Shown piece after piece: positions 3,945-45,676 of a stretch of 48,000 bases of DNA. Numbering within the stretch: position 1 is the stretch's first letter; every line of letters begins with the position of its first letter. Origin of the DNA: a virus; the IMG/VR virus record IMGVR_UViG_3300022916_000026, positions 1-48,000 of that record, one strand, 5' to 3'. Both the position numbers and the translations under genes were made by a program. The notes beneath the pieces were generated by a model, which searched no databases, was not told the DNA's origin, and saw only the letters and a list, made by a program, of their open reading frames with translations.

Positions 3945-4447
3945 CGCGCATCAACGGCGAAACGACCGACAAGGACATGGGCCGCGAGAAGCTCCTGCGC
4001 GAGCTTGGGGCCGCCGACGGCGCCACCGTTGACACGGGGATCTTTGACGGGGAGAAGCACCCCGAGAGCCCGGAGTATACCCTTGCCCAGATCCTGGCCG
4101 TGCACGAGTTCGGCACCAAGGACGGTAGAATCCCCGAGCGCTCGACGATCCGGGCCATGCTCCGCAAGAAAGGCAAGGTCTTCGAGCAGAGGTTCGATCA
4201 CTATCTCAAGCTCGTCGCCGAGGGCAAGACCACGATGATCTCAGCCCTGACCGCCTTCGGCGAAGAGACCGCCTCCGAGCTGCGCCGCGAGATCACCGAG
4301 TTGAGAGATCCGCCCCTGGCTGCCTCCACGATCAAGAAGACAGGCCGATCCAACCCGCTGGTTCACACCGGCGTGATGCGCAACAAGGTGCACTCGCAGA
4401 TCACAGTCGGCCTGCGCAAGAAGAAAGCGGGGCAGGTGTCCGTGTGA
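3941..4447 (+). CDS. Virion morphogenesis / tail-completion protein
   Basis: 168 residues with the pattern of Mu gpG-like 'virion morphogenesis' and HK97 gp10-like neck proteins: an early loop, 'LAQILAVHEFGTKDGRIPERSTIRAML' with the characteristic HEFG...IPxRxxxR motif (about residues 50-75), then a long helix and a final 'TGVMRNKVHSQI' strand. Such proteins sit at the head-tail joint or cap the tail tube. Start overlaps the upstream stop (ATGA), and the end overlaps the next gene (GTGA), indicating translational coupling within the neck operon. Confidence 0.75.
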   Translation: MTRINGETTDKDMGREKLLRELGAADGATVDTGIFDGEKHPESPEYTLAQILAVHEFGTKDGRIPERSTIRAMLRKKGKVFEQRFDHYLKLVAEGKTTMISALTAFGEETASELRREITELRDPPLAASTIKKTGRSNPLVHTGVMRNKVHSQITVGLRKKKAGQVSV

Positions 4448-4827
4448 GCTCCTCTGCTATCCAGGTCACCGCGCCCGAGTTTCTCAGCCTGACCGTGACG
4501 CGCGCCACCGCCAAGGACACCTATCCCGACGGCGACGGCGCGACCGGTGCCTCTGCGCCTGTCACCGTGCGCGGGTCCATGACGCCGGCCACCGCCAACG
4601 ATATGAAGCGGCTCGATGACGCCTTTCACACCTCAGAGGCCATGCGGATCATTGCCGTCGACGAGCTGCGCACCGGCAACGATCTGACAGGCTTCGCCGC
4701 CGACCTGGTCGCCTACGACTCCGAGCTATGGGAGGTCCACAGCTGCAAGCGCTGGCCCTGCTACGCGGGCGGTCAGCAGCACTGGGACGCCGTCGCCGTG
4801 CGCATTGACCGGCAGGGGCCGAGCTAA
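4444..4827 (+). CDS. Neck / head-tail joining protein
   Basis: A 127-residue protein with a GTG start overlapping the upstream stop. It contains a beta-rich 'SLTVTRATAKDTYPDGDG...VTVRGSMTPATANDMKRLDD' core and a C-terminal 'LWEVHSCKRWPCYAGGQQHWDAVAVRID' stretch, resembling the phage stopper/joining proteins found between the adaptor and the tail terminator. No enzymatic motif is visible. Its role is inferred from place in the adaptor-stopper-terminator order and general size. Confidence 0.55.
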   Translation: MSSSAIQVTAPEFLSLTVTRATAKDTYPDGDGATGASAPVTVRGSMTPATANDMKRLDDAFHTSEAMRIIAVDELRTGNDLTGFAADLVAYDSELWEVHSCKRWPCYAGGQQHWDAVAVRIDRQGPS

Positions 4828-43429: not shown

Positions 43430-43620
43430 TGGCTGGCAAAAAAAACCGCGCATCGAAGTTTTCCGACGCGTTCAAAAAAATAGACGCACTTTCCGATGCG
43501 CGCGAGATTATTGTGCGCGCCGTGGTTATTATTCGCCAATCGGTAACGGACGATGACGAGCAAGAGTGGATCTTCGACGCATGTGACTTCCTCGGGGTTG
43601 AGGATGCGGAGGACGTATGA
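43429..43620 (+). CDS. 63-residue hypothetical protein between portal and MuF
   Basis: ATG 43429 overlaps the portal stop (TGATG) and the end overlaps the MuF start (ATGA). A basic beginning (MAGKKNRASKFSDAFKKIDA), a hydrophobic helix (REIIVRAVVIIRQSV) and an acidic C-terminus (DDDEQEWIFDACDFLGVEDA). AT-richer in codon use than neighbours. Unknown role. Confidence 0.5.
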   Translation: MAGKKNRASKFSDAFKKIDALSDAREIIVRAVVIIRQSVTDDDEQEWIFDACDFLGVEDAEDV

Positions 43621-45422
43621 CCACGATCCGCTACCACGCCAAGGCCGCCCCCGTCGCCCCCCGTGTGCGCGCGCGCCAGCGGGCCACCTACGCCGCCGCG
43701 GCCAAGGTAGAAAAGGACCTCGCGCGATATCTGCGCGCCTCCCTCGCCTCGATGCAGGGCAAGGTGCAGATCGACAAGGTGGCGCGCCTGATCGGCGAGG
43801 GCTTGGGACCGTCGGAGATCTTCAGCATTATCGAGCGCACGGGCGGTGAATCAATCGAAGCCATCGCGTCCACCCTGGCCGATGGTGTCGCTGAGGCCGT
43901 TGAAGCTGGGGCCGCCGTTGCTTCCGCCGAAGCTGGTGGGATCGCCGTGGCCACCGCCGAGGGCGCCGCAATCATTGACATGGGCCGCCCGCTGATCGCC
44001 GACTATCTACGCACAAGTTCCCTTGCCGCCGTCGAGGACCTGAGCACGCAAGGGTTCAAGACCGTCAAGGCCGTGATCGACGAGGGCGTCTTGCGTGGGC
44101 GCCACCCCAGGGCGATGGCGCGCGATATCAAGTCGTCGATCTCTATGACCGAGCGAGACACCAAGGCATGGCAGAAGTTCAGGGCTACCCGCCTGGCCGA
44201 GGCCGGCTCAGATCCCGCGATGAAGGCCCGGGCGTTGGCCGCCTCTGACAAGTACGCCGAGGCCAAGATCGCGGCCCGTGCAAAGACGATCGCGCACACT
44301 GAGAGCATGACCGCGATCAACAAGGGTCGGGAGCAGCTATGGGATCAGCTCAAGGAAGACGGGGCGCTGCCCGACGATCAGCGCAAGGAATGGATAACTG
44401 GTTTAGATGAATTAGTGTGTATTGTGTGTGGTCCTCTTCATGGAGAAAAAATCAATGTAGGGGAGTCGTGGGCGCAAGCTGGAGGCCCGGACGTCGAAAC
44501 CCCGCCAGCCCATCCCAATTGTGTGCCTGCCGGCCAGGTGGTCTACGGTCCAGAGATTGAGGCTGTTACTCGCCGGGAATACGCCGGCCCGCTAGTCGAG
44601 ATCAAAACGGCGATGGCCGCAAGCTGCTCCGTCACCCCAAATCACCCGGTGCTCACCCCTCGCGGTTGGGTTGCAGCTGGTGCGCTCCGCGAAGGCGATG
44701 AGGTATTTCTTGGCGGCGCGGGTGAGCGGGTGCTTTCTTTTGTCAACCCATATGGTCAAGACGTTCCATCCAAGATCGAGGAAGTAGGGGATCTTCTTCG
44801 CATCTCGCGCCCTGTGGCGTCCATACGCATGCCATCCGCCGCCGTTGACTTCCACGGCGACGGAGTCCCCGGCGGCCACGTCGATGCTGTAGCGACCTAC
44901 CGCGCACTGGATCGTGACACTATAGCCCGCAGACCTCAGCCACTCGGCGACGAGCAACTCTGCCGGGCTAGAAAATCGACCGTCCCCCTCGCGTGTCTTG
45001 GCTATCTTGCAGCGATGCTCCTCCGAGTGAGTCGATCCGCGCATCGCCTCGTTTGCCGCCTTGGCAAGGGCCTGTCGCTCCTCTTTGCTGGCAAGGGCCT
45101 GTCGAACGAACATACTCTCGCTTCGATTTCTGGGGACAATTCCGCAAGCGAGGAGCCTGGGCCTTATGGCCGATCTGGCGATTCCATATCGCTTCGCGAG
45201 GGCCAGCTCGGAGGCCCCTTCGATGTAAAGTCTCTCGAGTTCACAAAGGGGCACATTGACGCGGGTGAATTTCATCGGGATAGGGTTGCATCTACGCGTG
45301 AATTCAGATATGTTGGGCATGTATACAATCTCCAAACTGCAGAGGGTTGGTTTTCGTGCAATGACATTATCACATCCAACTGCCGCTGTACAGAGGCCCT
45401 TGTGATCAAAAGGAAGAAATAA
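43617..45422 (+). CDS. MuF-like minor head protein containing an intein
   Basis: 601 residues. The extein is 301 + 13 residues: a helical MuF domain ('ARAKTIAHTESMTAINKGRE', EWITGLDELVCIVCGPLHGE and the end PPAHPNC^RCTEALV). MuF proteins bind the portal inside the head. Between HPN and CRC lies a 287-residue intein (residues 302-588): Cys1 in CVPAGQVVYGP, block B with T340-P-N-H343 in VTPNHPVLTPRGW, a DFHGDG segment (411-416), block F VGHVYNLQTAEGWFSCND and terminal DIITSN followed by Cys+1. Penultimate position is Ser rather than His. Splicing restores the conserved HPNCRC. Confidence 0.88.
   Translation: MTTIRYHAKAAPVAPRVRARQRATYAAAAKVEKDLARYLRASLASMQGKVQIDKVARLIGEGLGPSEIFSIIERTGGESIEAIASTLADGVAEAVEAGAAVASAEAGGIAVATAEGAAIIDMGRPLIADYLRTSSLAAVEDLSTQGFKTVKAVIDEGVLRGRHPRAMARDIKSSISMTERDTKAWQKFRATRLAEAGSDPAMKARALAASDKYAEAKIAARAKTIAHTESMTAINKGREQLWDQLKEDGALPDDQRKEWITGLDELVCIVCGPLHGEKINVGESWAQAGGPDVETPPAHPNCVPAGQVVYGPEIEAVTRREYAGPLVEIKTAMAASCSVTPNHPVLTPRGWVAAGALREGDEVFLGGAGERVLSFVNPYGQDVPSKIEEVGDLLRISRPVASIRMPSAAVDFHGDGVPGGHVDAVATYRALDRDTIARRPQPLGDEQLCRARKSTVPLACLGYLAAMLLRVSRSAHRLVCRLGKGLSLLFAGKGLSNEHTLASISGDNSASEEPGPYGRSGDSISLREGQLGGPFDVKSLEFTKGHIDAGEFHRDRVASTREFRYVGHVYNLQTAEGWFSCNDIITSNCRCTEALVIKRKK
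44390..44460 (+). other. AT-rich extein patch upstream of the intein
   Basis: Within the MuF extein, 44401-44460 is only 35% GC (21 of 60 bases), using codons such as TTA, GAT, GAA, TGT, ATT, AAA, AAT, GTA to encode LDELVCIVCGPLHGEKINV, whereas flanking MuF codons are strongly G/C-ending. It lies 60-130 bases before the intein site. It looks like DNA from a different donor, consistent with co-conversion during homing. Confidence 0.6.
44520..45380 (+). mobile_element. Intein in MuF, carrying an antisense homing endonuclease
   Basis: The intein runs from TGT (Cys, codon 302) to AAC (Asn, codon 588), 861 bases, in frame with MuF. Splicing motifs are as given for the MuF entry. No homing endonuclease domain is recognisable in the sense frame between blocks B and F; instead the opposite strand encodes one (44592-45320). 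The insertion site is the codon for the last conserved Cys pair of MuF, a position likely conserved in many phages and so a good homing target. The sense frame has no stop in 861 bases despite antisense coding. Confidence 0.82.
44592..45320 (-). CDS. Vsr-like/EDxHD homing endonuclease, antisense within the intein
   Basis: 242 residues from ATG 45320 with GGAG nine bases upstream. Residues about 26-62 form a helix-turn-helix (LERLYIEGASELALAKRYGI, ARSAIRPRLLACGI). Residues 117-197 carry a Vsr/EDxHD nuclease: SSPAELLVAEWLRSAGYSV (Glu 121), VGRYSIDVAAGDS (Asp 147), VAVEVNGGGWHAYGRHRARD (Glu 157, His 164, Asp 173) and LGWNVLTIWVDK. A linker with NUMOD-like repeats (SEEHRCKIAKTREG) joins them. It lies entirely within the intein on the opposite strand, so it can move the intein but is expressed separately. 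Confidence 0.8.
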   Translation of the reverse strand: MPNISEFTRRCNPIPMKFTRVNVPLCELERLYIEGASELALAKRYGIARSAIRPRLLACGIVPRNRSESMFVRQALASKEERQALAKAANEAMRGSTHSEEHRCKIAKTREGDGRFSSPAELLVAEWLRSAGYSVTIQCAVGRYSIDVAAGDSVAVEVNGGGWHAYGRHRARDAKKIPYFLDLGWNVLTIWVDKRKHPLTRAAKKYLIAFAERTSCNPTARGEHRVIWGDGAACGHRRFDLD

Positions 45423-45676
45423 TGCCAAAGACACTCAAGGAACGAATCACCGCGAAGAAGGAAGAGATCGCCGAGCTGCGCACCGAGGTTGATGCCCTGT
45501 GGGCCAAGGTCGCCCCCGTCCGCAAGAAAATCAAGCGCCTCAACAACAAGGCGATCGAGGCTGGCTGCGAGCTGCTCACCATGCAGCGCGAGGCCGTCGC
45601 CAAGCTGCAGGCCGACCGCGAGGCCGCCGCCGTCAAGGCTGGCAAAAAGGTCAAGCTCAAGGACGGCAAGGAGTAG
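45422..45676 (+). CDS. Small coiled-coil protein
   Basis: 84 residues; ATG 45422 overlaps the MuF stop by one base. Nearly continuous heptad helix (LKERITAKKEEIAELRTEVD, ALWAKVAPVRKKIKRLNNKA, LLTMQREAVAKLQADREAAA) with a basic C-terminus. Possibly a head accessory or a chaperone; unknown. Confidence 0.5.
   Translation: MPKTLKERITAKKEEIAELRTEVDALWAKVAPVRKKIKRLNNKAIEAGCELLTMQREAVAKLQADREAAAVKAGKKVKLKDGKE

Follow-up and report, generated by a model that had tools for sequence, protein, structure and literature searches.

Mobile inteins of the canonical kind, such as the Mtu RecA intein and PI-PkoII, combine the two halves of a Hint splicing domain, with its C1, TxNH and N-C chemistry, with a LAGLIDADG or HNH nuclease, and they are inserted in a conserved motif of the host protein. 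Their nuclease is encoded in the same sense frame as the splicing halves, its gene occupying the interval from block B to block F, and it forms part of the polypeptide that is spliced out. EDxHD/Vsr-type homing endonucleases also occur in phage mobile elements, as exemplified by I-Bth0305I, which was deposited as a mobile intron protein. In the case of fractured genes, an EDxHD nuclease is reportedly associated with inteins as a separate ORF, and this ORF is said to physically split the intein. EDxHD nucleases have been tied to split inteins (Dassa 2009, as cited in PMC12350094). Homing endonuclease genes antisense to a self-splicing element are likewise on record, namely in myxomycete nuclear group I introns (I-DsqI, Dir.S956-2), where they are expressed in vivo (PMC9548176). 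Inteins in the MuF genes of Jerseyvirus phages have been mentioned, without an antisense gene (PMC8425127). The preliminary description of the present locus knew of no antisense arrangement for any intein, and no intein with an antisense nuclease was found in the full-text literature searched here; subscription papers fell mostly outside that search, and the absence of an earlier description is unproven.

The window analyzed here, a 48,000-nucleotide stretch of viral DNA, encodes on its plus strand a 601-residue MuF-type minor head protein precursor (43617-45422; Phage_Mu_F at 3e-6, PHROG head protein at 8e-25), which is also recognized by the phageSPP1_gp7 model and several PHROG head families. 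The 287-residue intein proposed to interrupt this protein at HPN^CRC is confirmed by its coordinates, by intein profiles and by invariant splicing residues. It occupies 44520-45380 (plus strand), beginning with C1 at 44520 and ending with an Asn at 45378-45380, after which the +1 Cys opens the C-extein CRCTEALVIKRKK (45381-45419, plus strand). Block B (TPNHPVLT, 44634-44657) and block F (GHVYNLQ, 45315-45335) are both found on the plus strand, and the criteria of a class 1-like Hint intein (N-terminal Cys, block B TxxH, C-terminal Asn, +1 Cys/Ser/Thr) are met. Individual domain matches are weak: MuF residues 310-586 match Intein_splicing at 3e-5, under the curated cut-off, as does intein_Nterm, and the window intein has a Pfam score of 24.1 against a gathering cut-off of 35.8, which one relative (L037) exceeds. 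The intein family profile matched solved inteins in the PDB at an E-value of 5e-10, and a Foldseek search with the AlphaFold2 model of the sense intein returned inteins, the first being that of Mtu RecA (prob 1.00). Both Hint halves are predicted at more than 90 pLDDT, whereas most of residues 134-253 fall below 50. Among 48 aligned relatives, C1, the T/N/H of block B, the H/V/L of block F, the terminal Asn and the +1 Cys are all invariant. The penultimate residue, commonly His, is Ser in the window intein, one of several family members lacking that His.

No nuclease had been seen in the sense frame, and the center of the sense intein indeed has no predicted fold (pLDDT <50), such that the in-frame nested nuclease of a canonical large intein is missing. 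What had been proposed instead, a 242-residue HTH plus Vsr-like nuclease on the complementary strand with a GGAG site of its own, is confirmed by the analysis. The gene (44592-45320, minus strand, within an open frame of 44592-45434) is codon-registered with the sense frame; its ATG is read opposite the His codon of block F, and the Leu-Gln codons of that block lie opposite its Shine-Dalgarno GGAG (45330-45333, minus strand), which precedes the start codon by 9 nt. A helix-turn-helix region at nuclease residues 25-58 (45147-45248, minus strand) is inferred from the predicted structure and from HTH families in relatives, while profiles and fold place a MTES_1575/Vsr-like (EDxHD-type) nuclease domain at residues 119-216 (44673-44966, minus strand). 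The REase_MTES_1575 match of the antisense protein (E 5e-9) is just below the cut-off, with DUF559 and Vsr weaker, and the same model is matched by 45 of 56 family members. Profile searches with the nuclease retrieved 3hrl (8e-9), 3r3p, which is I-Bth0305I (3e-7), and Vsr 1cw0 (0.019); identity to the closest solved nuclease is only about 21%. The AlphaFold2 model (mean pLDDT 89.8) consists of N-terminal HTH-like helices followed by an alpha/beta nuclease, and its top Foldseek match in the PDB is I-Bth0305I (prob 1.00, E 1.5e-3, TM normalized to target 0.62). Failure of the antisense protein to fold as a Vsr-like nuclease would have refuted the proposal; a confident fold is predicted. Residues E121, D147 and E157 are invariant or nearly so, without having been mapped one-to-one on residues of I-Bth0305I. 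In neither the window nor LP31 did a search of the antisense strand around the start of the nuclease reveal a sigma-70-like promoter. The antisense nuclease of L285, a bacterial genome contig, apparently carries three HTH-type repeats before the nuclease domain; one or two are present in other members, which suggests modular DNA recognition.

The locus resembles each of the described systems in part. It shares with canonical mobile inteins the Hint halves and their chemistry, the insertion in a conserved host-protein motif and the placement of the nuclease gene between blocks B and F, but here the nuclease is a separate protein of the opposite strand. It shares with I-Bth0305I the nuclease fold and residence in a phage mobile element, but the nuclease is joined to N-terminal HTH modules and its gene lies antisense within an intein. 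Unlike fractured genes and split inteins, in which the halves occupy separate ORFs, the MuF sense frame is a single unbroken ORF of 601 codons, and the same base pairs are read on both strands. It has its opposite-strand orientation in common with I-DsqI and Dir.S956-2, but these involve an RNA intron whose homing gene sits in a peripheral extension and has no protein-coding overlap with a splicing protein, whereas in the MuF intein the protein splicing motifs and the nuclease share the same codons.

It is now evident that this arrangement is not peculiar to the window. A tblastn search with the antisense protein identified 107 phage records, nearly all matched over at least 80% of its length at 23-36% identity, at loci annotated as head morphogenesis, MuF or hypothetical protein, mostly from the opposite strand; almost all of these homologues are antisense to MuF or other head genes. 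Fifteen of 16 loci inspected have the anatomy of the window, and the remaining one (Acinetobacter phage P1068) is free-standing. In these loci, sense position 3 corresponds to antisense position 1, the nuclease start codon is in most cases read from the bases opposite the block F His (G-H-V-Y-N-L), a GGAG or GAGG is usual upstream within the complement of the N-L-Q/E codons, and a C-terminal G-x-Y/H-x-V-I-x-G motif (EHRVIWG in the window) is the complement of block B. Viral contigs scanned with the window nuclease as a single protein yielded no match, which is explained by its identity of only about 45% to the closest relative identified. A 15-member alignment proved too diverse for collection scans and small sub-alignments were substituted; three such nuclease queries returned 105 loci (102 viral and 3 bacterial contigs). 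Profile classification was applied to 213 loci drawn from viral contigs, phage records, plasmids and genomes, and assigned 211 of them as antisense to an intein. The other two are P1068 (L014) and L132, a mixture whose record is marked UNVERIFIED and has frameshifts on both strands; L059, counted within the 211, is free-standing when inspected closely. Further bacterial-genome loci from a search of Actinomycetota were also antisense wherever block F was readable. The host proteins are of the MuF, Phage_min_cap2 and VG15 types, some of them fused to portal.

In the converse search, MuF inteins lacking the antisense ORF would have counted against the proposal. Loci were picked by the sense intein alone, using either the whole intein or only its N-terminal 135 residues so that the center could not steer the selection. 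Among the matches listed, which comprise 80 of about 535 confirmed per query and 141 distinct loci records, none lacked the nuclease, with a worst E-value of 6e-67. Given that only 80 of these roughly 535 were listed, and that some loci represent the same contig at different flanks, rarer exceptions may exist. Loci from Pseudomonas phages, Aaphi23 and Vibrio phages were at first taken as nuclease-free, and the nuclease proved to be present in them. The two-strand intein architecture is real, conserved and widespread, and apparently undescribed. We consider it likely that these loci form a widespread class in which block F doubles as the ribosome binding site and start of the nuclease, and in which splicing and homing reside in separate products with independent timing.

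An open antisense frame need not encode anything. High-GC genes keep registered antisense frames open by chance, and at 58% GC the overlap in the window could be regarded as a mere by-product of a GC-rich, codon-registered sense frame. The family as a whole refutes this reading, which we can no longer credit to any serious degree. Homologous nucleases occur in loci of 37-45% GC, and in AT-richer phages, namely Aaphi23 (41% GC) and Vibrio 1.113/1.197, stops abound in the registered antisense frame of the exteins, the frame being open across the intein alone. Codon choice in block F also speaks against a by-product: block F could be read in 77 non-redundant members, of which 69 use CAT (giving ATG) for the His and 8 use CAC (giving GTG), where extein usage predicts 30.0 CAT, and the Leu codon is CTC (giving the GAG of the Shine-Dalgarno) in 64 as compared with 18.5 expected. 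At least four consecutive Shine-Dalgarno bases are found 8-11 nt before the start in 56 of the 77. Block B, serving as a control, exhibits no such bias (His CAT in 16/76 vs 28.6 expected, Leu CTC in 14/67 vs 18.2). Across 94 non-redundant loci, the overlap contains no TTA, CTA or TCA codon as opposed to 628 expected from extein usage; this count used loci with both frames open, a filter that dropped only 4 of 98. A synonymous-codon shuffle counting stops was discarded, since in codon-registered frames the codon set fixes the stop set, and pairwise shuffle identities, which ignore common ancestry, were not used either; codon-usage expectations, substitution spectra and per-column tests took their place.

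The substitution spectra are also at odds with a by-product. Differences at sense positions 1/2/3 number 1898/1619/3037 in the N-exteins and 1453/638/877 in the intein middle; over 28 independent pairs, the p1/p3 ratio is 1.66 in the intein middle and 0.62 and 0.58 in the exteins, a reversal seen pair by pair in 27 of 28, with one tie. Wobble has shifted from sense position 3 to position 1, the one that pairs with antisense position 3, and the antisense frame is therefore the constrained one inside the intein. An unconstrained antisense frame, as judged from codon statistics, would likewise have refuted the proposal; codon usage, per-column tests and substitution spectra all find it constrained. 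The computational evidence shows the antisense gene to be real, under selection and conserved. This same evidence bears on another reading, that the antisense transcript chiefly serves as a regulator silencing MuF with the nuclease being incidental. Such an mRNA would be complementary to the center of the MuF mRNA, yet a purely regulatory RNA needs neither a conserved start codon nor a Shine-Dalgarno sequence, and the strong coding constraint on the nuclease extends to its catalytic residues, making a primarily regulatory role very improbable.

Two loci separate the nuclease from the intein altogether. In P1068 (OQ689089.1, 1839-2732), the MuF gene is complete and intein-free, and the nuclease gene lies directly downstream in convergent orientation. 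Its DNA is 34% GC and has 12 stops in the registered sense frame, despite which the ORF is retained, again contrary to a by-product. The P1068 nuclease is sister to L112 (99/94) inside a 100/99 clade of antisense-intein nucleases, and by this position it appears to have left an intein. In L059 (IMGVR_UViG_2811994882_000002, 3994-4675 plus flanks), MuF ends with HPS-CRCTTLPAFGP and a stop, and the antisense nuclease follows; beyond it stands a second N-CRCTTLPAFGP, and over this duplicated C-terminal stretch of 11 codons the DNA of the two copies differs at just 7 nucleotides, all of them third positions. Splicing seems here to have been replaced by a recoded C-extein, which would be a different homing strategy for this insertion site. 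In both loci the antisense gene is kept without sense constraint, and these two derivatives, together with homology, codon constraint and structure prediction, support the claim of a separate opposite-strand protein.

The preliminary description had further suggested that both strands look constrained, reading the nuclease motif E-V-N-G-G-G-W-H from the bases of sense DFHGDG (44847-44864, plus strand). The first part stands, as these bases encode the antisense catalytic strand S-V-A-V-E-V, and D-F-H-G (44847-44858) in particular gives A155-V156-E157-V158; N-G-G-G-W-H is instead encoded opposite the bases that immediately precede DFHGDG on the sense strand. The sense motif, (V/E)DFHGDG in the window and its relatives, is conserved beyond the need of the antisense Glu strand. 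At this site, A155-V156-E157 are 93-100% conserved and sense G-H-F at the same bases 89-95%, with synonymous antisense codons at the three positions fixed beyond expectation (P 1e-11 to 7e-31). Sense conservation also far exceeds antisense need over antisense residues 208-238 (block B, P down to 2e-29) and 1-3 (block F). Dual constraint does not hold for the middle third: antisense residues 26-147 are conserved with the sense residues merely following, and the sense reading of 44904-45263 (plus strand) is unconserved and mostly predicted disordered, at pLDDT mostly below 50. Dual constraint is real but local, and in its center the sense insert seems to be carried along as a passenger that need only stay open.

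Such a passenger, together with the missing penultimate His, could be taken to mean that the nuclease is real but the intein dead, MuF being made truncated or unspliced. This is difficult to reconcile with the invariance of C1, the T/N/H of block B, the H/V/L of block F, Asn and the +1 Cys in 48 relatives, with a sense frame that remains open over hundreds of codons and re-enters the C-extein in frame, or with sense constraint in blocks B and F above antisense need, and a dead intein accordingly appears quite unlikely.

Evidence for mobility comes from relatives, not from the window phage itself. When queried with the joined flanks, 399 of 475 Guernseyvirinae-type records contain at least 80% of the MuF site without interruption, as do 135 of the 158 Gordonia records, and intein-free homologues rejoin in frame at the same site. 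For instance, the MuF gene of ST4 (1044 nt) is shorter than that of LP31 (1860 nt) by 816 nt, or 272 codons, which is the length of the LP31 intein. LP31 and PK1 have antisense nucleases 96% identical and N-exteins 76% identical; conversely, Vivi2 and Angelicage have N-exteins 99% identical and nucleases 83% identical. Such uncoupled identities imply that intein and host gene move separately, and to judge from sequence comparison the LP31/PK1 pattern is a mark of lateral movement. Several MuF insertion sites are used (HPN^C, IN^C, DN^C and STT^C).

Taken together, we hold it very likely that the MuF-type head proteins of these phages carry a mobile intein in which one DNA segment encodes splicing on one strand and homing on the other. 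The sense strand would yield a Hint-type splicing domain with its two halves joined by a mostly unstructured linker, and the antisense strand a separate HTH plus Vsr-like (EDxHD-type) homing endonuclease, whose start and ribosome binding site lie opposite block F, its catalytic Glu opposite FHGD and its C-terminus opposite block B. Presumably, in co-infected cells the nuclease cleaves MuF alleles that lack the intein, repair copies the intein, which thereby spreads, and MuF is restored by protein splicing; these steps are inferred, as there are no data on cleavage, target site, homing or splicing. It may be speculated, in the absence of expression data, that the reversed orientation uncouples the nuclease from the late, high-level expression of a structural gene such as MuF, that the nuclease might then be made early when recombination is possible, and that it is kept out of the head protein precursor. 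It is also conceivable that the nuclease serves chiefly not for homing but for competition between phages, by cutting rivals without the intein, or for attack on host DNA: MTES_1575/DUF559-like nucleases occur in anti-phage proteins as well (NCBIfam ProA match), and any homing nuclease also excludes rival alleles. Strict confinement of the nuclease to the intein, presence or absence at one exact site in close relatives, the HTH DNA-binding modules and the uncoupling of intein from extein divergence all fit homing, and a mainly competitive role is consequently considered unlikely.

If mobile, such inteins represent a second way to build a mobile intein, in which both strands are coding and a splicing motif is re-used as a translation start. 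They are also among the clearest conserved antisense protein overlaps, offering thousands of aligned codons over which the constraint on each strand is measurable. They provide a source of very diverged natural Hint halves with a seemingly dispensable linker between them, as well as new candidate site-specific nucleases with modular HTH domains, and they occur in well-studied, cultivable phages (Jerseyvirus, Kagunavirus and Gordonia phages) in which the nuclease is usually unannotated.

Some members depart from the common layout. In Escherichia phage vB-Eco-KMB36 (L020), an antisense-nuclease intein lies at STT^C, upstream of HPN^C, and the usual site is empty. L003/L004, L027 and L038 have two antisense nuclease matches per MuF gene, apparently reflecting two inteins at different sites; these double matches in one host ORF represent three distinct genes, and were read as two inteins in L027. 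As for annotation, the antisense ORF is listed in PK1 (L010, 1977-2786) and PK2 (L287, 474-1283) as an extra hypothetical protein overlapping the head gene, and it is unlisted in most other records.
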